A stretch of 46,306 nucleotides of DNA, from NCBI RefSeq assembly GCF_000177675.1, contig NZ_ADGX01000067.1, positions 1-46,306 on the forward strand, given 5' to 3'. Position 1 is the first letter of the stretch; every line of letters begins with the position of its first letter. The notes under the pieces were generated by a model that was not told the DNA's origin, ran no database searches, and saw nothing but the letters and a program-made list of their open reading frames with translations. The stretch is from Parafrankia sp. EUN1f (GTDB lineage Bacteria > Actinomycetota > Actinomycetes > Frankiales > Frankiaceae). The position numbers and the translations under genes are program-made. This document shows positions 11,985-21,317 of the stretch, piece by piece.

Positions 11985-12056
11985 GGATTGCCAAGCGACT
12001 CCGCGTCCCGTTTGCACCTGTTGATGCCCTGGTGGACGCCGGAGCTCGGACGGACC

Positions 12057-13121
12057 TCAGCCCCGGCTCGCGAGCAGGCCCGCGACCTCCGTCGCCCAGT
12101 AGGTGAGGATGACGTCCGCGCCGGCCCGGTGGATCGAGGTCAGCGTCTCCAGGATGGTCCGTTCACGGTCGAGCCACCCGTTGGCCGCCGCCGCCTCGAC
12201 CATCGCGTACTCCCCGGAGACCTGGTAGGCGGCGACGGGGACATCCACGGTGTCGGCGACAGCCCGAAGGATGTCCAGGTACGCCAGCGCCGGCTTCACC
12301 ATCACGGCGTCCGCGCCCTCGGCCAGGTCCAGCGCCACCTCGCGCAGCGCCTCGCCGACCGACCGTGCGGGATCCTGCTGGTAGCCGGCGCGGTCACCGA
12401 ACTGGGGGGCGCACAGGGCCGCCTCCCGGAAGGGGCCGTAGAAGCCGGAGGCGTACTTCGCCGAGTAGGCCATGATCGGGATGTCGGTGTGCCCACCACC
12501 GTCGAGCGCGGCCCGGATCGCCGCGACCTGGCCGTCCATCATGCCGCTGGGGGCGACCATCTCGACGCCGGCCGCGGCCTGGGCGAGCGCGATCTGGCCG
12601 TAGCGCTCGAGCGTCGCGTCGTTGTCGACGTCGCCCGCAGCGGTGAGCAGGCCGCAGTGCCCGTGGTCGGTGTACTCGTCCAGACAGAGATCGGCCATGA
12701 TCACAATGTCGCCGCCGACCTCGGACACCAGATCGGCGAGGGCGAGCTGGACGATGCCGGCCGGGTCGTCGGCGGCGGAGCCGCGGGCGTCCTTGTGCTC
12801 GGGCACGCCGAACAGGATGATCCCGCCGACGCCAGCCGAGACCGCCTCCGCGGCGGCCTTGCGCAGCGTCGAGCGGGTGTGCTGGACGACCCCGGGCATC
12901 GACGAGATCGGAACCGGCTCGGTCACACCCTCCCGGACGAACATCGGCAGGATCAGGTCGGCCGGGTGCAGGCGCACATCGGCCACCATCCGGCGCAGGG
13001 CCGCTCCGCGGCGCAGCCGCCGCGGGCGTGCCGCCGGGAAGCCGGCGGGAAGACCCGCGGGCGGGCGCCCGGGTGTGCTGCCGGTGCTGCCGGTGCTGCC
13101 GAAGCCGCCGGTGCCGCTCAC
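12057..13121 (-). CDS. hemB: porphobilinogen synthase (delta-aminolevulinate dehydratase)
   Basis: Condenses two 5-aminolevulinate molecules to porphobilinogen. The active-site lysines are Lys222 ([15 protein letters not shown]) and Lys276 ([12 protein letters not shown]). The metal motif reads [14 protein letters not shown], which keeps two of the three cysteines of zinc enzymes and has Asp in place of the middle one, so it is intermediate between the zinc and magnesium types. The first ~40 residues are Gly/Thr/Pro-rich and precede the conserved start of the barrel. GTG at 13121 overlaps the cobA/hemD stop as GTGA. Last gene of the rex-hem operon. Confidence 0.95.
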
Positions 13122-14938
13122 CGCCGGGAGCCTCGCCTCGGCTTGGGCAGCCGCGCGGCCAACGGGCCGACCTTCCCGAGCTCCTCCCGGTGCTCGGCGG
13201 CGAAGTCCGCCAGCGCGGTCACCAGCGCCGGCACGGACGCCTCAGCGGCCTGGACGTCCACCCGCAGCCCGAGCTCCTGCGCGGTGGCGGCGGTCGCCGG
13301 GCCGATGACCGCGATGACCGTCGTCTCGTGCGGCTTGCCGGCGATGCCGACCAGGTTGCGCACCGTGGAGGACGACGTGAACACGACCGCGTCGACCCTG
13401 CCCCCCTTGAGGGCCTCCCGGATCGGCGCCGGCGGCGGGGCCGCCCGCACGGTGCGGTAGGCGGTCACCTCGTCGACCTGCCAGCCGCGGTCCTTCACCC
13501 CGGCGACCAGGGTGTCGGTGGCGATGTCGGCACGCGGCAGCAGCACCCGGTCGAGCAGGTCCAGCGACTCGTCGAACTCGGGCCAGTCCTCGAGCAGGCC
13601 CTCGCTGGACTGCTGGCCGGAGGGGATGAGGTCGGGCCGGATACCGAAGGCACGCAGCGCGTCCGCGGTCGCCTCACCGATCGCGGCCACCTTGACGCCG
13701 GCGAACGCCCGCGCGTCGAGGCTGCGCTCCTCGACCTTCTCCTGCACGGCCTTCACCGCGTTGACCGAGGTGAAGGCAACCCACTGGTAGCGGCCGGAGA
13801 CCAGGCCGGTGATCGCCCGTTCCATGGGGGCGGCGGTACGCGGCGGTTCCACGGCGATCGTGGGCACCTCCAGCGGGCTCGCGCCGTGGGCACGCAGCGA
13901 GTCGGAGAGGATCGCCGCCTGTTCCTTCGTACGGGGCACCAGCACCGTCCAGCCGAACAGCGCGCGGGTCTCCCACCAGGACAGCTTCGGGCGGGACCCG
14001 ACCACCTGGCCGATCGAGATGACGACCTCGCTCGGCGGGGTCGCGGTAGCGTTCAGCATCGGGGCGGCGTCCGCCTCGATGCGGTCCAGCGTCGAGGCGA
14101 CGGTGCGCTGGTCGGTGGTCGTTCCGTCCACGGTGACCGCGACCGGGGTGTCACCTGGGCGCCCGTGCTCGACCAGCGCGGTGGCCACCTTGCCGATCTC
14201 GGCGGGTGAGGCGGTGACGATCAGCGTGCCGGGTGCCCCGGCCAGTGCGCCCCAGTCGACGTCTCCCGGCGTGCTGGGCACACCGAGGCCGCCGAAACCG
14301 GTCGGGGCACCGAGCCCGAGCGGTGCGCCGAAGCCGCCACCGACTCCCAGCGGGCCGCCTCCGAGGCCCGACATCGGCCGCGCGCCGACGCCGAGGCGGG
14401 AGGTGCCGAACGGGGGCGGCGTGAGCGGCCCGACCGGCTCGCTGCCCCCGAACGGGGAGCCGCTGTTCACCGAACCCGAGGACGAGAAGACACCCGACGT
14501 GCTCGCGAAGGTCACCGGCGAGCCCGGCGCCACACCGGCGTAGGTCGCCACCGCGGCCGACGTGGAGACACCCGGGACGACCCGGTAGGGAATCTTGGCC
14601 TTGGCCAGCGACTGCGCGTCCGCGGCGCCGATCCGCGTCAGCCACGGGTCGGACGCGTACAGCCGGACGACCTTCTCCCCGGCCCGCGCCCGGCTCACGA
14701 CCGCGGCGGTCGCGGCCTCGGCGTCCCGGACCGGCTTGGGAGCGTCGAGGTCGCCGATCTTCAGGACCTCCGCCGACAACGACTCGATCACGGCCGACGG
14801 TACGTCCGGGTCCGCGACCACCACGTCGGCGGCGGCGAGAGTCTCCACGGCAAGGACCGTGAGCAGCCCCGGATCATGGGGTCCGGCGCCCACCAGGGCG
14901 ACCGGGGACACGGGCTTCTTGGTACGTCGGGTGGCCAT
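13118..14938 (-). CDS. hemD: uroporphyrinogen-III synthase fused to a degenerate methyltransferase domain
   Basis: The C-terminal half (about residues 330-590) is uroporphyrinogen-III synthase HemD, seen from [26 protein letters not shown] and [14 protein letters not shown]. The N-terminal half is SUMT/CobA-like, as in the Streptomyces fusion protein. Its glycine loop reads [12 protein letters not shown], and the usual GGDPF motif is degenerate (RLYASDPWL), so methyltransferase activity is doubtful. A Gly/Pro/Ser-rich insert of about 80 residues (146-228) splits the SUMT-like domain. ATG at 14938 follows the hemC stop by 2 bases. Cyclises hydroxymethylbilane to uroporphyrinogen III. Confidence 0.92.
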
Positions 14939-14940
14939 GC

Positions 14941-16128
14941 TCAGCTTGTTCCCATCAGCGTCTGTGCTCCGGCGGACAACATCTCGTCCGCGAGGCGCTG
15001 CCCGAGCGCCTCCGGGTCGACGGCAGAACCGGTGAGTTCGCACCGCAGGACCCTGCTGCCATCCGGCGCCGCGACCACCGCCCGCAGGCGGAGGTCACCC
15101 ACGGCGGGCGCACCATCGCCGCCTGTGGTCGGGCTCGAGCCGGTACTCGGGAGGACCCGGCCCAGGGCACCCACCGGAGCGGTACAACCGGCTTCGATGC
15201 CCGCCAGGAAAGCACGCTCGGCTCTGACCGCGACAGAGGACGGTGCGTCGTCGAGCACAAACCGTAGCAGCTCCGCGAGCCCCCCATCGATCGCCTGGCT
15301 CAGATCTGGTCCGCTCCGGACGTAGGATTGTCCGCTTTCCGCCAGCCCGCCACCAGCCGACCCACCACCAGCCGACCCACCGCCCGCCGGCCGACCACCA
15401 GCCGACCCACCACCCGTCAAAGCACTACCCGCCAACGGAGCCACGGCGGTGCCCGCCGTCCGGACGCACTCGATCGCCAGCGCACCCTGGCCGGGGGCGG
15501 GCAGGATCACCTCGGAGGGGATGATCTCGGTCACGGCGTCGAGGCGGTCGAGCCGGGCGAGGCCCGCGTGCGCGAGGATGACGGCGTCCACCTCCCCGTC
15601 GATGGCCTTCTTGATCCGGGTGTCGACGTTCCCCCGGATAGGGACGACGTCGAAACCGAGCCCCATGGCGCGCAGCTGCGCCGCCCGGCGCGGCGCCCCG
15701 GTGCCGATACGCGCGTTCGGGCCCAGCTTGACCAGCCCGCGGCCGCTGGGCGAGACGAGGACGTCCCGGGTGTCGACCCGGGGTGGGACGGCGGCGAGCA
15801 CGAGCCCGTCCGGGGTGGCGGTCGGGAGATCCTTGAGCGAGTGGACGGCGAGATCGATCTCGCCGGACAACAGCGCCTCACGAAGCGCGCTCACAAAGAC
15901 GCCCGTGCCACCGATCTGGCTGATCGCCCCCTGCGACCTGTCACCGTCAGTCACGATCGGGACCAGTTCCACCTGGCAGCCGAGCCGGGCCCGCAGTGCC
16001 TCGGCCACGTGCCCCGACTGGGCGAGGGCCAGCGCGGAGCGCCTGGTGCCCAGGCGCAGCGGGCGACGTGTGAGCCAGGCGAACGACCGGGCGTGCGATC
16101 GGGCGTCGGGCTCTCGGGTGTCTGTCAC
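14941..16128 (-). CDS. hemC: porphobilinogen deaminase (hydroxymethylbilane synthase)
   Basis: Polymerises four porphobilinogens to hydroxymethylbilane. Motifs include [22 protein letters not shown], the substrate-binding stretch [11 protein letters not shown] and the cofactor-holding Cys315 in [10 protein letters not shown]. Compared with the usual ~310 residues it is long (395). Extra length comes from a ~20-residue N-terminal extension and a Gly/Ser/Ala repeat insert at about residues 238-262, encoded by 15-bp repeats. The GTG start overlaps the hemA stop as GTGA. It is co-transcribed with rex, hemA, hemD and hemB by position. Confidence 0.95.
15350..15409. repeat. 15-bp tandem repeat inside hemC
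   Basis: Unit CCACCAGCCGACCCA occurs at 15350-15364, 15365-15379 and 15395-15409, with one diverged unit between. The frame is kept, and the repeat encodes the Gly/Ser/Ala linker of HemC, placed between the second and third conserved domains where a flexible insert is tolerable. Confidence 0.85.
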
Positions 16129-17555
16129 GTTCTCTCCACCAGATCCAGGTCAGGTGCGGAGACAATGGCCGGCACGTCCCGTGGAAGGTCGAACAGCTCG
16201 CGCAGCGCCTCGGCGTAGCTGTCACCGCCCGGCGCCTCCGCGAGCTGCTGCACCCGCACAGTGGGCGCGTGCAGCAGCTTGTCGACGACTCTGCGCACCG
16301 TGCCGGAGACCATGTCCCACTCACGGTTGTCAAGATCGGGCAGGCGGGTGCGCAGCCGGTCGAGCTCGTCGCGCACCACAGCCGCCGCGTGTGCCCGAAG
16401 CGCCACCACGGTCGGGGCGACCCGCTCCGCGCGCCGCCGGTCGAGGAACCCGCCCACCTCGGCGGCGACCAGGGCTCGGACGGCCTCCACGTCATGGGAG
16501 ACCTGCGCCCCGTCCAGGGCGACCCTCAGTGCCTCGATGTCGATCAGGGTGACCCCGGGAAGTTCCCGAACCGCGGGGTCGATGTCCCGGGGAAGCGCGA
16601 GGTCGAGGAAGACCAGCGGGCGGCCGCCGCGGTCCTCGACGGCCGCGCGGACCTGGTCGTGGCTCACCACGTGCCCGGACGCCCCGGTCGACGAGATGAC
16701 CAGGTCCGCCCGACCGATCTCGTGGGCGATGTCGCTCAGCCCGACCGCGCGGGCGTCATGGGTCTGGGCCACCCGCGCCGCGTGGGCGGCCGTCCGGTTC
16801 GCGACGACGACCTCGCCGGCGCCGGCACGGCGCACGGTCTGCGTCGCCAGCGAGCCGACCGCGCCCGCGCCGATGATCAGAACCCGGGCTCCGGCGAGCG
16901 GTTCCGCGTCGGCGAGCTCGACCGGTGCGGTGAGCTCGGGTCGCAGCAGGTCCGCGACGGCGTCGGCGGGATCGGTGCCGATGCCCGAGACGGGCACGGC
17001 GAGCACGTCGGGCCGACGGGCCTGCAGGTCGAAGGCCGCCATCCGGACACCCACCGAGACGATCGAGGCTCCCGCCGCGTCGATGGATGTCTCGCTGTGG
17101 GCCCGCTTACCCACCCGCAGCGCGTTCTGGAACAGCGCGCCGAGCGCCCCGCTCGTCACCTCGGCCGCCTGGGCCGCCCGGAAGGCCACCCGGACCTGGC
17201 CGAGGATCTGGGCCTCGCCGACGAGCATCGAGTCCAGGCCGCACACCACCGAGAAAAGGTGGCTGACCGCACGTGCCTCGTGATGGACGTACAGATGCGC
17301 CGCGAGATCGTTCATGGGCACGCCGCACACCCGGCTGAGCTGGTCCGAGATGTCGGCCAGCCCACCGTGGAAGGTCTCCACCTCCGCGTAGATCTCGGTG
17401 CGGTTGCAGGTGGAGAGGATGACCGCCTCGCTCACGTGATCAGCGGCCACCAGGTCGTGGAGCACCTTCGGCGTCTCGTCGGCGGAGACGGCGGCCAGCT
17501 CCAGCAGCGACGTCGGCGCGGTCCGGTGGTTGAGGCCCACCGCGAGCAGACTCAT
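16125..17555 (-). CDS. hemA: glutamyl-tRNA reductase
   Basis: NADPH-dependent first committed step of C5 heme synthesis, giving glutamate-1-semialdehyde. The catalytic Cys50 lies in [11 protein letters not shown], followed by [18 protein letters not shown]. The NADPH loop is [11 protein letters not shown], and [12 protein letters not shown] is typical. The C-terminal dimerisation helix is present. An Ala/Pro-rich insert of about 30 residues precedes the NADPH domain. ATG at 17555 overlaps the rex stop as ATGA, so Rex and HemA are translationally coupled and Rex probably controls heme supply. Confidence 0.96.
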
Positions 17556-18508
17556 TCGGCCTCACTCCCGCCGGCGACCACGGGCAGGGACACCCGCGAC
17601 GGCCGCGCAGCCGGCGTCGCCTGCGCAGCCTGGGTCGGCTGCGTAACCTGCGACGACTGCGTAACCGGCGACGGCTGCGTAACCTGCGACGGCTGCGCAG
17701 CCTGCTCCGGCGCCACCCGTGACGGCGGTGACAGCACCCGACGAGTCATCCCCACGACCTCACCAGCCTCGTCATCCACGATTCCGCCCGGCCCCGGCTC
17801 ACCACCGACGGCCCGCACCCCCGGCCGGGGGGGCAGGCCTGGTGACGGACGTTTACGTGCTTCGTGAAAGGAGAGAATCTGCAGCTCCAGGGCAAGGTCG
17901 ACCTTACGCACATCCACTCCCTCGGGCACCGAAAGCACCGTAGGGGCGAAATTCAGGATGCTGGTCACGCCCGCTGCGACGAGTCGATCGCAGACACCCT
18001 GGGCCGCCGCCACCGGCGTACAGATCACGCCGATGGTCACCTGGCAGTCCTCGATGACCGCTTCCAGCTCGTCGGCCGGACGGACGACGACCGCACCGAC
18101 CCGCTCGCCCACCCGGGACGGATCGGCATCCACCAGGGCCGCGATCCGGAACCCGCGGGCGTGGAAGCCGCCGTACCCGGCCAGTGCATGCCCGAGGTTA
18201 CCCACGCCCACGAGCACCACCGAGCGGTCTTCGGTCAGGCCGAGCTCGGCCGAAATGCACTCCAGCAGGATGCCGACCTCGTACCCGACCCCGCGGGTGC
18301 CGAAGGATCCGAGCTGGGAGAGGTCCTTGCGGACCTTGGCCGAGGTGACCCCGGCAGCGGCGGCCAACGTGTCCGACGACACCGTCTCCACGCCACGCTC
18401 GCCGAGCCCGGTCAGCACACGCAGGTAGAGCGGCAGCCGGGCCACCGTCGCCTCGGGCATCGGCGATCTGCCCGCCAGCCGCCCGGTACCCCGCCGTGGT
18501 GAACCCAT
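17552..18508 (-). CDS. rex: redox-sensing transcriptional repressor Rex
   Basis: Winged-helix repressor that senses the NADH/NAD ratio. The DNA-binding part runs from IPEATVARL-like ([16 protein letters not shown]) through [25 protein letters not shown], here in two overlapping pieces. The Rossmann motif is [18 protein letters not shown], and the C-terminal domain-swap helix ends [13 protein letters not shown]. About 95 extra C-terminal residues follow, Gln/Pro/Val/Thr-rich with 6-residue repeats, which Streptomyces Rex lacks. ATG at 18508 has GGGAG about 8 bases upstream. The perfect operator at 18715-18732 suggests autoregulation of rex-hemACDB. Confidence 0.94.
17639..17710. repeat. 18-bp tandem repeat in the rex 3' end
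   Basis: Four units of about CTGCGTAACCTGCGACGR at 17639-17656, 17657-17674, 17675-17692 and 17693-17710, the last diverged. The frame is kept, giving repeated Gln-Pro-Ser-x-Val-Thr residues in the extra tail of Rex. Confidence 0.8.
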
Positions 18509-18714
18509 CCGCGGCTCCCGACATCCCTCGACAGTGCGGACGGATCGCCGTGCCGCTGGGCACCGACCAGATCCGCGTGCCGACGCATTCCGCCTGCCGA
18601 CACCCGAGCCTGCCGACACCCGACCGGGCGTGCACGCCCGGCCGGACGTCCACGCTCGACCCGGCGGCTACCACGGCCGACGACCGCGTCTGCGGACGCA
18701 TCGATTCTACGACT

Positions 18715-18732
18715 TCGTGAAGTGATTCACGA
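18715..18732. promoter_or_regulatory. Rex operator
   Basis: Perfect palindrome TCGTGAA-GTGA-TTCACGA. It matches the actinobacterial Rex operator pattern TGTGAA-N4-TTCACA except at the outermost positions. It lies 207 bases upstream of the rex start and overlaps the last codons of the glutaredoxin-like gene. The expected role is NADH-relieved repression of the rex-hem operon. Confidence 0.8.
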
Positions 18733-19161
18733 TGTTCTCGGAGCCTTCGGTCCACCATCGCGATCGGACCCGCCCCGCTGCCGGGAGCCATCGGCCCGCC
18801 CGGCCCGCCCGGCCCGCCACGACCAGCGGTCACCCGCCAGGGCGCGACGCAACCGCTCCTCCTCGACCCGCCAGTACCCGTGTTCCCGGCCGTCGACGAG
18901 GATCACCGGTAGCCGGTCGCCATAGGCGTCGGCGGTCTCGGGGTCGGCATCGGCGTCCATCTCCCGCCAGCCGACACCGAGCTCGGCGCTCACTTTCGCA
19001 ATCACCACTCGCGCGTCATCACACAGATGACAGCCCGCCCGGGTCACCAGGACGATCCGAATGCCGGACTCCCCCGCTCCGCCTCCCTCACCGGGAGCGG
19101 AGCCGACCGCGGAGCCGTCCTGGGGAGTCTGTGGGCTTCGACTGTGGTTCCGTTCGGACAT
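18727..19161 (-). CDS. glutaredoxin-like (DUF836) family protein
   Basis: Small thioredoxin-fold protein with a redox pair in RAGCHLCDD (Cys44 and Cys47), followed by an acidic stretch and DRLPVILVDGREHGYWRVEEERLRRAL in shorter pieces, as in the glutaredoxin family of actinobacteria. Its thiol partner is unknown. A disordered ~30-residue head and a Gly/Arg/Ser tail flank the fold. ATG at 19161 is used; GTG at 19182 is in frame and has a slightly better upstream GAGG. It reads toward rex, and its stop lies inside the Rex operator, so read-through into rex is possible. This neighbour is also beside rex-hem in streptomycetes. Confidence 0.82.
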   Translation of the reverse strand: MSERNHSRSPQTPQDGSAVGSAPGEGGGAGESGIRIVLVTRAGCHLCDDARVVIAKVSAELGVGWREMDADADPETADAYGDRLPVILVDGREHGYWRVEEERLRRALAGDRWSWRAGRAGRADGSRQRGGSDRDGGPKAPRTS

Positions 19162-19426
19162 CTGTGCACGGACGTCGATCACCTCAGCGACGATAGTGCT
19201 TCGACGCCGTCCGGTTACCTACCATCGGGTGACGATCCACTGCCCGGCGGCAATCAGGCGCGCCGACGGTGCCAGGTCTGGCGCGGATGGAGACCCGGCT
19301 ACACTCAGCTACCCGGCGGCTATGGTGGTGACGGTGACCAGGCCGTTTCCGGCATCAGCTCGGCCCGCGAAACCGTCTCCGCCCGCGAACCGTCTCCGCC
19401 CGCGACGTCCACGCTCGGGAGCCCGC
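19162..19426. other. divergent promoter region between glutaredoxin-like and bldN-like genes
   Basis: A 265-base region read out both ways. Its sequence is less GC-biased around 19185-19250 than nearby genes, consistent with promoter DNA. I could not assign definite -10/-35 elements. Confidence 0.4.
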
Positions 19427-20224
19427 ATGTGCGCCACGACGTGCCTCACTCCCAGCGGGCTACTCGCCGGCAGCCCACTGGCCGGTGGGCCACGCGCCGG
19501 CAACCCATCGGCCCGTCGTCTGCTCGGCCTGCTGCCACTGCTCGGCGCGGCCGTGGCCATGGCCCGGGCGACCGCCGGGAACACCACCAGCGTCGAGCCA
19601 TCCGACCTGCTCGCCCAGGCTTCCGACGCCCGCGGTGAGGAACTGGCCGGCCCGCGGGGGGAGGACGACCTCGTCCGGCGGGCCCGCCGCGGGGAGCGGG
19701 AGGCGTTCGGGCTCATCTACGACCAGCACGCCGACCTCGTCTTCCGCTATGCCTACTACCGCGTCGGCGGCAACCGCGCGGTCGCCGAGGACGTGGTGTC
19801 CGAGACGTTTCTCCGGGCCCTGACCCGGATCTCGAGCTTCGAGTGGCAGGGGCGCGAGATCGGCGCCTGGCTGATCACCATCGCCCGCAACCACATCGTC
19901 GACCTGGCCCGCTCAGGCCGCGCCCGGTTGGAGTTCCCGACCTCCGACCTGCTGGCGACCGCCGACGAGCGGGTGGGCTCGGGCACGGTGGTCCCCGGGC
20001 CGGAGGACACCGTGCTGTCCGCCATCGAGCTGCGGGAGCTGCTCCAGGCGCTGAGCTCGCTGGGCACCGAGCAGCGGGAGTGCGTCACGCTCCGGTTCCT
20101 CGAGGGGCTCTCCGTGCGCGAGACCGCGCTGGCGATGAACAAGAAGGAGGGCGCGGTGCGAGCGCTGCAGCTGCGGGCCGTACGTACCCTCGCCCGACAG
20201 CTGCCCGCGCCCCGCGGGGACTGA
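19427..20224 (+). CDS. bldN: ECF sigma factor, BldN/AdsA type
   Basis: Extracytoplasmic-function sigma factor close to Streptomyces BldN, which controls aerial development genes. Region 2 is clear (AFGLIYDQHADLVFRYAYYRVGG, then AEDVVSETFLRALTRIS, in adjoining pieces). Region 4 reads LGTEQRECVTLRFLEGLSV and ends LARQLPAPRGD. Before region 2 lies a ~90-residue N-terminal extension, the kind of pro-sequence that must be removed from BldN before it works. ATG at 19427 is preceded by GGGAG at 6-bp spacing and gives 265 residues, near BldN's size. Position beside the rex-hem operon and upstream of a HAD phosphatase matches the Streptomyces arrangement. Whether it has a developmental role here is inferred. 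Confidence 0.85.
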   Translation: MCATTCLTPSGLLAGSPLAGGPRAGNPSARRLLGLLPLLGAAVAMARATAGNTTSVEPSDLLAQASDARGEELAGPRGEDDLVRRARRGEREAFGLIYDQHADLVFRYAYYRVGGNRAVAEDVVSETFLRALTRISSFEWQGREIGAWLITIARNHIVDLARSGRARLEFPTSDLLATADERVGSGTVVPGPEDTVLSAIELRELLQALSSLGTEQRECVTLRFLEGLSVRETALAMNKKEGAVRALQLRAVRTLARQLPAPRGD

Positions 20225-20300
20225 CCCGCACGGTCAGCCGTTCCGTCCGTGGGCCGTCGCACGTCGTAGGCTGACTGCGCCGCTCGACGAGCCCGGACGG

Positions 20301-20356
20301 CCGGAGGCACTGCCAGCCGGAGGCCCGGAGGCAATGCCAGCCGGAGGCACTGCCAG
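20301..20356. repeat. 16-bp direct repeats upstream of the HAD gene
   Basis: Three copies of CCGGAGGCAYTGCCAG at 20301-20316, 20325-20340 and 20341-20356, with an 8-bp partial unit CCGGAGGC between the first two. The repeat lies in the sigma-to-HAD gap. The period is not a multiple of three. Confidence 0.85.
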
Positions 20357-20432
20357 GGGCAGCCGCGGGCGAGGCGCGGCGGGCCGGGCCGGAGGCCACT
20401 GGCGACGGTGATCGGACGGGGGCGGAGATGAC

Positions 20433-21317
20433 ATGAGGGTGCGACGACGCAAGGACCACCTGGATGGCCGGGAGGCGGCCGAGGTCGCGGCCACCGCCGC
20501 GTTGAAGGTCGCCGCCGAGGAAGTGGCGAAGGCTCCGCCGGACGAGTCCGCGGCGGCGTTCTTCGACGTCGACAACACCATGATGGCCGGCGCCTCGATC
20601 TTCTACTTCGCGCGCGGGCTTGCGGCCCGCGACTTCTTCGACTCGCGGGACCTGCTGAAGTTCGGGTGGCAGCACATCAGTTACCGGCTGCGCGGGCTGG
20701 AGGACCCGAACGGGATGCGGGACGCCCGCGAGGCCGCCCTTGCCTTCGTCGCCGGGCGCAACGTCACCGACATCGTCCGCTATGGCGAGGAGATCTACGA
20801 CGAGCGGATGGCGCAGCAGATCTACTCGGGAACGCACGCGCTCGCCCAGCAGCACCTCGACGCCGGGCAGCGGGTCTGGCTCGTGACCGCGACGCCGGTC
20901 GAACTGGCCTCGATCATCGCCCGGCGCCTCAGCCTGACCGGCGCACTCGGCACCGTCAGCGAGGTGGCGGACGGCTGCTACACCGGGCACCTGGTCGGCG
21001 AGCCGCTGCACGGGCCGGCCAAGGGGGCGGCGGTGCGGGCACTGGCCGAACGCGAGGGCCTGGACCTGTCGCGGTGCTGGGCCTACTCGGACTCGATCAA
21101 CGATCTTCCGATGCTCTCCCTGGTCGGCCATCCGGTGGCGATCAACCCGGACCCGGACCTGCGCGCCGTCGCCAAGGAACGGGACTGGCTGATCAAGGAT
21201 TTCCGCACCGCGCGCAAGGCCGCCCGGATCGGCATCCCGACCGCGGCCGGGCTGGGTGCTCTCGGTGGCGGTGTCGCGGCCGGAATGGCTCTGCGCCGCC
21301 GCTACGGCGGAACCTGA
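20433..21317 (+). CDS. HAD-IB family hydrolase (SerB-like phosphatase)
   Basis: Haloacid dehalogenase-fold phosphatase. The catalytic aspartates are Asp45 and Asp47 in FFDVDNTMM; motif II is LVTATP and motif IV is [11 protein letters not shown]. These residues indicate a phosphoserine-phosphatase-like HAD of subclass IB. The C-terminus has a Gly/Ala hydrophobic stretch that may be a membrane anchor. ATG at 20433 follows GGAG. In related actinomycetes this gene follows the BldN-type sigma factor and sits by a PlsC-type acyltransferase, so lipid phosphate is a plausible substrate, but that is inference. Confidence 0.9.

Follow-up and report, generated by a model that had tools for sequence, protein, structure and literature searches.

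Among the Rex systems described so far, that of Streptomyces avermitilis is the closest to the locus studied here. According to the available part of PMC5355995, S. avermitilis Rex protects the sequence TTGTGCACGCGTTCACAA from -39 to -17, spanning the -35 and -10 regions and the interval that separates them. The same part of that account gives EMSA and ChIP support for S. avermitilis Rex, reports that transcription of its targets goes up in a rex mutant and that NADH lowers its binding, and lists nuo as a known Rex target (PMC5355995). For the Rex protein of T. maritima, 12 DNA-contacting residues are named in the accessible portion of PMC8836258. Among the papers listed by our literature search, whose coverage left out most subscription papers, the S. 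avermitilis work ranked first and no study of Rex in Frankia appeared; the one paper listed for Frankia and redox control concerns ferredoxins, as judged by its title and abstract. Here we analysed a stretch of 46,306 nt (the window; contig NZ_ADGX01000067.1 of Parafrankia sp. EUN1f, family Frankiaceae), in which a palindrome ahead of rex is very probably the Rex operator of a rex-hemACDB promoter, at which NADH would relieve repression, as judged from its sequence and by analogy with the described systems. The features of the region are collected in Table 1.

Table 1. Coordinates of the features in and around the palindrome (positions within the window).
Feature	Position	Strand	Basis
Predicted Rex operator core, TCGTGAA-GTGA-TTCACGA	18715..18732	none	Motif match, rarity, conservation at 30/30 rex loci
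Predicted extended operator, 24 bp	18712..18735	none	Phylogenetic footprint; ACTT flanking each 16-bp core half
TGA stop of glutaredoxin-like gene	18727..18729	-	ORF reading; inside predicted operator
Putative -35-like hexamer, TCGTGA	18727..18732	-	Weak match; 17 nt before -10
Putative rex promoter -10 box, TAGAAT	18704..18709	-	Conserved TANNNT-type box, fixed spacing
rex	17552..18508	-	NF003992 E 3.3e-109; PF06971 and PF02629; presumed start
hemA, glutamyl-tRNA reductase	16125..17555	-	NF000744 E 6.4e-170; overlaps rex end
hemC, hydroxymethylbilane synthase	14941..16128	-	TIGR00212 E 6.8e-78; overlaps hemA end
hemD region, uroporphyrinogen-III methyltransferase-like and synthase-like	13118..15043	-	Start uncertain
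hemB, porphobilinogen synthase	12057..13058	-	NF006762 E 1.1e-138; PF00490; start chosen by us
Glutaredoxin-like gene upstream of rex	18727..19161	-	PF05768 E 3e-17
Divergent ORF with BldN-family ECF sigma factor	19061..20224	+	TIGR02952 E 1.5e-47, residues 204-381

The palindrome and the genes behind it

A pattern scan of the window located the palindrome with 0 mismatches, its two exact 7-bp arms enclosing an N4 spacer, GTGA, that is not self-complementary. When up to three mismatches to the Rex pattern were allowed, the window contained 4 matches, against 0.78 expected from the mean of 100 shuffles, and 0/100 shuffles reached 4. The original prediction had placed an exact palindrome 207 nt before rex, overlapping the end of the preceding glutaredoxin-like gene. 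The scan and the ORF coordinates confirmed this placement, the distance being counted to the ATG at 18508, which we infer to be the rex start codon, and the TGA of the upstream gene does fall within the site. The site had also been called perfect; this holds for the inverted repeat GTGAA-N4-TTCAC, which is present here and at 30/30 fetched rex loci, but not for the outer bases, where C/G stands instead of the T/A of TTGTGAA...TTCACAA. As compared to the Streptomyces consensus TTGTGAANNNNTTCACAA, quoted in the available part of PMC5355995, these two positions differ, with C in place of T and G in place of A. The outer T/A is a preference of the consensus rather than a demonstrated requirement. 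Among the Frankiaceae sites both C and T occur at the outer position, and the Rex-protected site at atpI of S. avermitilis ends TTCACGA, as given in the part of PMC5355995 at hand.

The encoded Rex aligns to the solved T. maritima Rex (5zz5, 7wb3) with an E value of 1.1e-40. Read by eye, this alignment showed 9 of the 12 contact residues listed in the accessible portion of PMC8836258 to be identical (Arg12, Ser33, Arg48, Lys49, Ser52, Gly58, Arg60, Gly61 and Tyr64), while three differ from T. maritima to here (Glu34 to Asp, Lys43 to Thr and Gln46 to Lys). The same portion of PMC8836258 describes Arg60 of T. maritima Rex as contacting O2 of the thymine that immediately precedes the half-site G; since cytosine likewise offers an O2 for this contact, C may be tolerated in place of T at the outer base in Frankiaceae, by analogy with that structure.

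Profile matches bore out the predicted order of hemA, hemC, hemD and hemB after rex. The hemD region matched NF004593 (E 3.1e-38) and NF004790 (E 3.1e-35), each under its curated cut-off, and the NCBIfam profile search gave no match for the glutaredoxin-like gene. The TIGR02952 match in the divergent ORF is likewise below its curated cut-off, and the true start of that gene lies further in. An Rfam search of 12000-20500 gave no match. Homology and gene order support NADH control of rex-hemA-hemC-hemD-hemB, by analogy with the described operons.

Conservation of the site and the putative promoter at rex

A protein search found rex in 32 of 35 Frankiaceae genomes. The 30 rex loci that were fetched had been selected by protein, independent of the site, and every one carried a perfect site upstream of rex. 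In a genome outside this set (G022), coordinates put the site ~130 nt before rex; in another (G016), the rex match begins only at residue 52, where the contig ends, and the upstream sequence falls outside the contig. No rex match was obtained in G006, G010 and G014. The assemblies of the first two are highly fragmented (in G006 only part of hemA is present, at the edge of a contig, and in G010 hemA was not found), and both keep the site before the nuo genes dealt with below; we read their missing rex as assembly gaps.

Information content at the 30 rex loci was 1.93 bits per position in the core halves, 0.86 in the N4 spacer and 0.40-0.43 in the flanks. The conserved block reads ACTTCGTGAA-N4-TTCACGAAGT, then CG, then a TA[ACG]A[AC]T box. 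The distance from the 16-bp core to this box is exactly 6 nt in 29/30 loci and 8 nt in the remaining one (L037). In the window, 5 nt separate the 18-bp core from the TAGAAT box, and the extended operator has one asymmetric pair (18714/18733). Arm positions 1, 2, 3 and 4 are paired in 30, 27, 28 and 30 of the 30 loci, respectively, and position 5 in 2/30. The -35-like hexamer, TCGTGA or TTGTGA across the loci, was assigned from the spacing seen in the Streptomyces loci and from the promoter description; a consensus promoter scan of 18400-19400 called no promoter. On the model of the Streptomyces work and the Rex structures, a Rex dimer would sit on the 18-24 bp site when NADH/NAD+ is low, covering the -35 element and part of the spacer and thereby blocking RNA polymerase, and a rise in NADH would release Rex and allow transcription of rex, hemA, hemC, hemD and hemB.

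Glutaredoxin-like similarity was present upstream of rex in 30/30 loci. The stop codon of this gene could be placed in 28 loci, L046 and L047 being those in which it was not found. It falls within the site in six of the 28 (L018-L022 and L042) and 28-283 nt before the core in the remaining 22. With overlap in 6/28 loci only, the stop-codon overlap was rejected as a functional device; it is probably incidental, set by where the upstream gene happens to end.

We also compared 80 named rex loci, in which the best site lay 238-463 nt before the codons of the Rex recognition helix and, in all 80, in the corresponding place and surroundings. This best site had no mismatch in the 12 Frankiaceae loci and one (GTGCA for GTGAA) in the 68 loci from Streptomycetaceae or Micromonospora. 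The second-best site in the scanned stretch of these 68 loci had 2-3 mismatches against 1 for the best, so that position and surroundings, not score, single out the site there.

Other sites in Frankiaceae genomes

A genome scan for TGTGAA-N4-TTCACA-like sites had been proposed together with the original prediction. In the 9.35 Mb genome of this strain (396 contigs), the strict pattern YGTGAANNNNTTCACR (YGTGAA-N4-TTCACR) was found at 3 places and its reversed control at 0. These are the rex promoter, a site (C383:21949) preceding a geranylgeranyl reductase-family gene (TIGR02032 E 1.1e-76) and then nuo genes, which were identified by eye among the ORFs, and a site inside an ORF (C391:87081). 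The strict pattern occurs in 34/35 Frankiaceae genomes, at 1-4 places each, and the control in none except for 2 places in G019. Among the matches listed, only two promoter sites recur under the strict pattern, rex and reductase-nuo.

Third strict sites were classed at 19 loci, 18 in relatives plus L003 of this genome, and at 15 of them the site is covered by a long stop-to-stop frame whose third-position GC is at least 0.81. At three others (L087, L092 and L094) no such high-GC3 frame covers the site (best 0.76, 0.68 and 0.69), and at L113 a 0.84 frame touches only the end of the site; these four showed no recurrence among the matches listed. The sites at L094:3065, L092:3027 and L113:1727 are each strict sites of a single genome, and one of them is followed at ~0.8 kb by an ORF that was judged ClpC-like by eye. 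Recurrence was seen for one third site, which seven genomes (L080, L083, L085, L089, L090, L091 and L118) share inside one homologous ORF pair, and the homologous stretch of this genome (L256) carries it with one mismatch. It probably reflects coding constraint, an intragenic Rex site being possible. As the strict pattern also recurs inside this ORF family of relatives, recurrence alone is no proof of an operator.

A relaxed pattern (0-1 mismatch) matched this genome at 37 places and its reversed control at 5. Apart from the site in the window, 35 of the 36 places were classed (C383:1071 was left out), and no high-GC3 frame was present at nine (L010, L240, L241, L242, L246, L249, L250, L257 and L259), a crude classing, since it also counts the nuo site as coding, owing to the stop-to-stop reductase frame that extends across it. 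Only L241 among the nine has an identical 16-mer in G017. The sequence at L241:1537 (G000:C374:19936), CGTGAATCGTCTCACG, lies outside high-GC3 frames and is part of a different palindrome, TGAATCG-N5-CGATTCA; it was not counted as a Rex site because of this overlap. Just before the first ATP-synthase ORF of this genome, the best match to the Rex pattern had 3 mismatches.

The site upstream of the reductase was recorded at 26 loci in 25 genomes (twice in G006), with 24 distinct sequences, a selected count, as most of these loci were chosen because the strict scan showed a site there. The count omits L113 (G026; no reductase or NuoA), L204 and L205, and the survey leaves out G002, G004, G011, G012, G030, G032 and G033. 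In a test free of this selection, the reductase was sought in eight genomes and matched in seven. The site was present in G006, G009, G010, G031 and G034; G014 has the reductase without the site, the gene start was not readable in G026, and G016 gave no reductase match; on these grounds L113, L204 and L205 had been kept out of the count. Information at the nuo loci was 1.98 bits per position in the core halves, 1.15 in N4, and 0.69 and 0.30 in the flanks. In 26/26 loci the core is preceded by a TA(C/G)ACT box that begins 18, 19 or 24 nt ahead of it, and given this box, the operator at nuo probably overlies the transcript start. This predicted position is unlike the Rex footprint at S. avermitilis nuoA1, which extends from -42 to -16 according to the available part of PMC5355995. 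Arm positions 1-3 are fixed at nuo and position 4 is paired in 15 of the 24 distinct sequences. The nuo palindrome of this genome (L004:6933-6979), just past a TACACT box, folds as RNA at -23.8 kcal/mol (z -4.17), and the nuo operator may double as a 5'-leader stem-loop.

G014, a Frankiaceae genome of 3.0 Mb and 94% completeness, presents a natural test, as rex and both promoter sites are absent together in this one genome. Its contig C280 (L209) carries the glutaredoxin-like gene, its stop, 191 nt and then hemA (start assigned by eye), and no Rex similarity better than E 0.21 was found on this contig. Against the 10 fixed core bases, the best match in G014 had 3 mismatches before hemA and 4 before the reductase. 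The single strict site of G014 is on a different contig, inside a long frame.

In Streptomyces, the first Rex target to be described was cytochrome bd. Over 850-900 nt ahead of cydA, the closest approach to the strict Rex pattern had 3 or 4 mismatches at 27 Frankiaceae loci, one per genome (30 had been fetched, and three were without the anchor motif); in this genome it had 4. A TCTAC-N4/5-GTAGA-like palindrome lies within 300 nt of cydA in 18 of the 27 loci and is absent in 9 (raw count). Before cydA at L097:2773-2893 (G000:C357) there are four TCTAC-N5-GTAGA-like palindromes, three of them at 19-nt spacing, and a divergent BlaI/MecI-family gene stands beside cydA of this genome, the only one for which it was recorded (PF03965 E 6e-24). 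Our guess is that this BlaI-family neighbour binds the cydA palindromes. It is conceivable, though on balance somewhat doubtful, that the Rex regulon of Frankiaceae has shrunk to rex-hem and geranylgeranyl reductase-nuo, with a C/G-flanked 24-bp operator, and that cytochrome bd has passed to a BlaI-like repressor acting at TCTAC-N5-GTAGA sites. If so, Rex would match the supply of heme and complex I to NADH, with the low-oxygen oxidase outside Rex control.

Alternative readings and comparison with described Rex systems

The Rex operator reading draws on the rarity of the pattern, its conservation at 30/30 loci, the positional identity with S. avermitilis, the site at nuo and the joint absence in G014. 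Counting against it are the outer bases off consensus, the weak -35, the empty promoter scan and the fact that the co-loss was seen in one genome. The CRP consensus is YGTGA-N6-TCACR. The palindrome fits this consensus too, and it might thus be bound by a CRP/GlxR-type regulator; palindromes of this form number 29 in this genome against 8 for the reversed control. However, the inner AA/TT is found in only 3 of those 29, whereas at the rex loci the inner A and T are kept in 30/30 while N4 varies, and the site is missing where rex is missing (G014). Moreover, the corresponding Streptomyces site was footprinted by Rex, as the part of PMC5355995 at hand describes, and we regard a CRP/GlxR-type regulator at this palindrome as very improbable.

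Alternatively, the palindrome could form a hairpin in the RNA, terminating or stabilising the mRNA of the upstream glutaredoxin-like gene, the stop codon of which lies inside it here. As RNA it folds at -9.8 kcal/mol (z -1.66), a value that 10/200 shuffles equalled. An intrinsic terminator (GC-rich hairpin and U run) was rejected, with 0 matches in a terminator scan of 18400-19400, and so was an extended hairpin with covariation, as the rex arms are unpaired past position 4. Conservation at rex fixes the sequence itself, beyond mere pairing, and the stop lies elsewhere in 22/28 loci. Furthermore, the same core precedes reductase-nuo, next to which a dienelactone hydrolase-family gene is oriented divergently. 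Taken with these points, the hairpin is the least credible of the explanations considered. An additional role is somewhat easier to accept: Rex on the site might, as the original prediction had it, form a roadblock to transcription coming in from the glutaredoxin-like gene, besides repressing the rex promoter, as the site is placed between two same-strand genes and similarity to the upstream gene is retained at all 30 loci. The distance from the glutaredoxin-like stop to the operator, however, ranges from overlap to 283 nt, and we consider such a roadblock unlikely.

Read as a Rex operator, the palindrome would place heme synthesis and complex I of the Frankia group under the NADH-dependent control already described in Streptomyces. 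Nitrogen fixation in this group depends on how respiration and oxygen are controlled, and the two promoters make a short target list for experiments. The new points are modest, namely the two recurring strict promoter sites, among the matches listed, and a cytochrome bd without a Rex site and often with BlaI-like palindromes.

The operator arrangement itself is already known from Streptomyces, and the present one is a Frankia-type example of an ordinary kind. It resembles the operator of S. avermitilis rex-hemAC1DB and S. coelicolor rex-hemACD in the leading gene order and in its position relative to the -10 box, and shares with it a GTG(A/C)A-N4-TTCAC core over the -35 and spacer; the spacing of the Streptomyces version, TTTGTGCACGCGTTCACAAAGACATAGCCT, to the -10 box equals that found here. 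It differs in having outer C/G instead of T/A and a distal half GTGAA, as against GTGCA in the 68 loci outside Frankiaceae, and in the upstream stop codon lying within the site in this lineage. Rex operators of S. aureus and B. subtilis are also quoted in the available part of PMC5355995. That of S. aureus, TTGTGAAWWWWTTCACAA, has the TGTGAA half-site and the 4-nt spacing, but its spacer and outer bases are AT-rich, and that of B. subtilis has the TGTGAA half-site with a looser second half. The Rex targets in S. aureus and B. subtilis also differ from those proposed here, being fermentation, nitrate and cytochrome bd genes in the same part of that account (PMC5355995).
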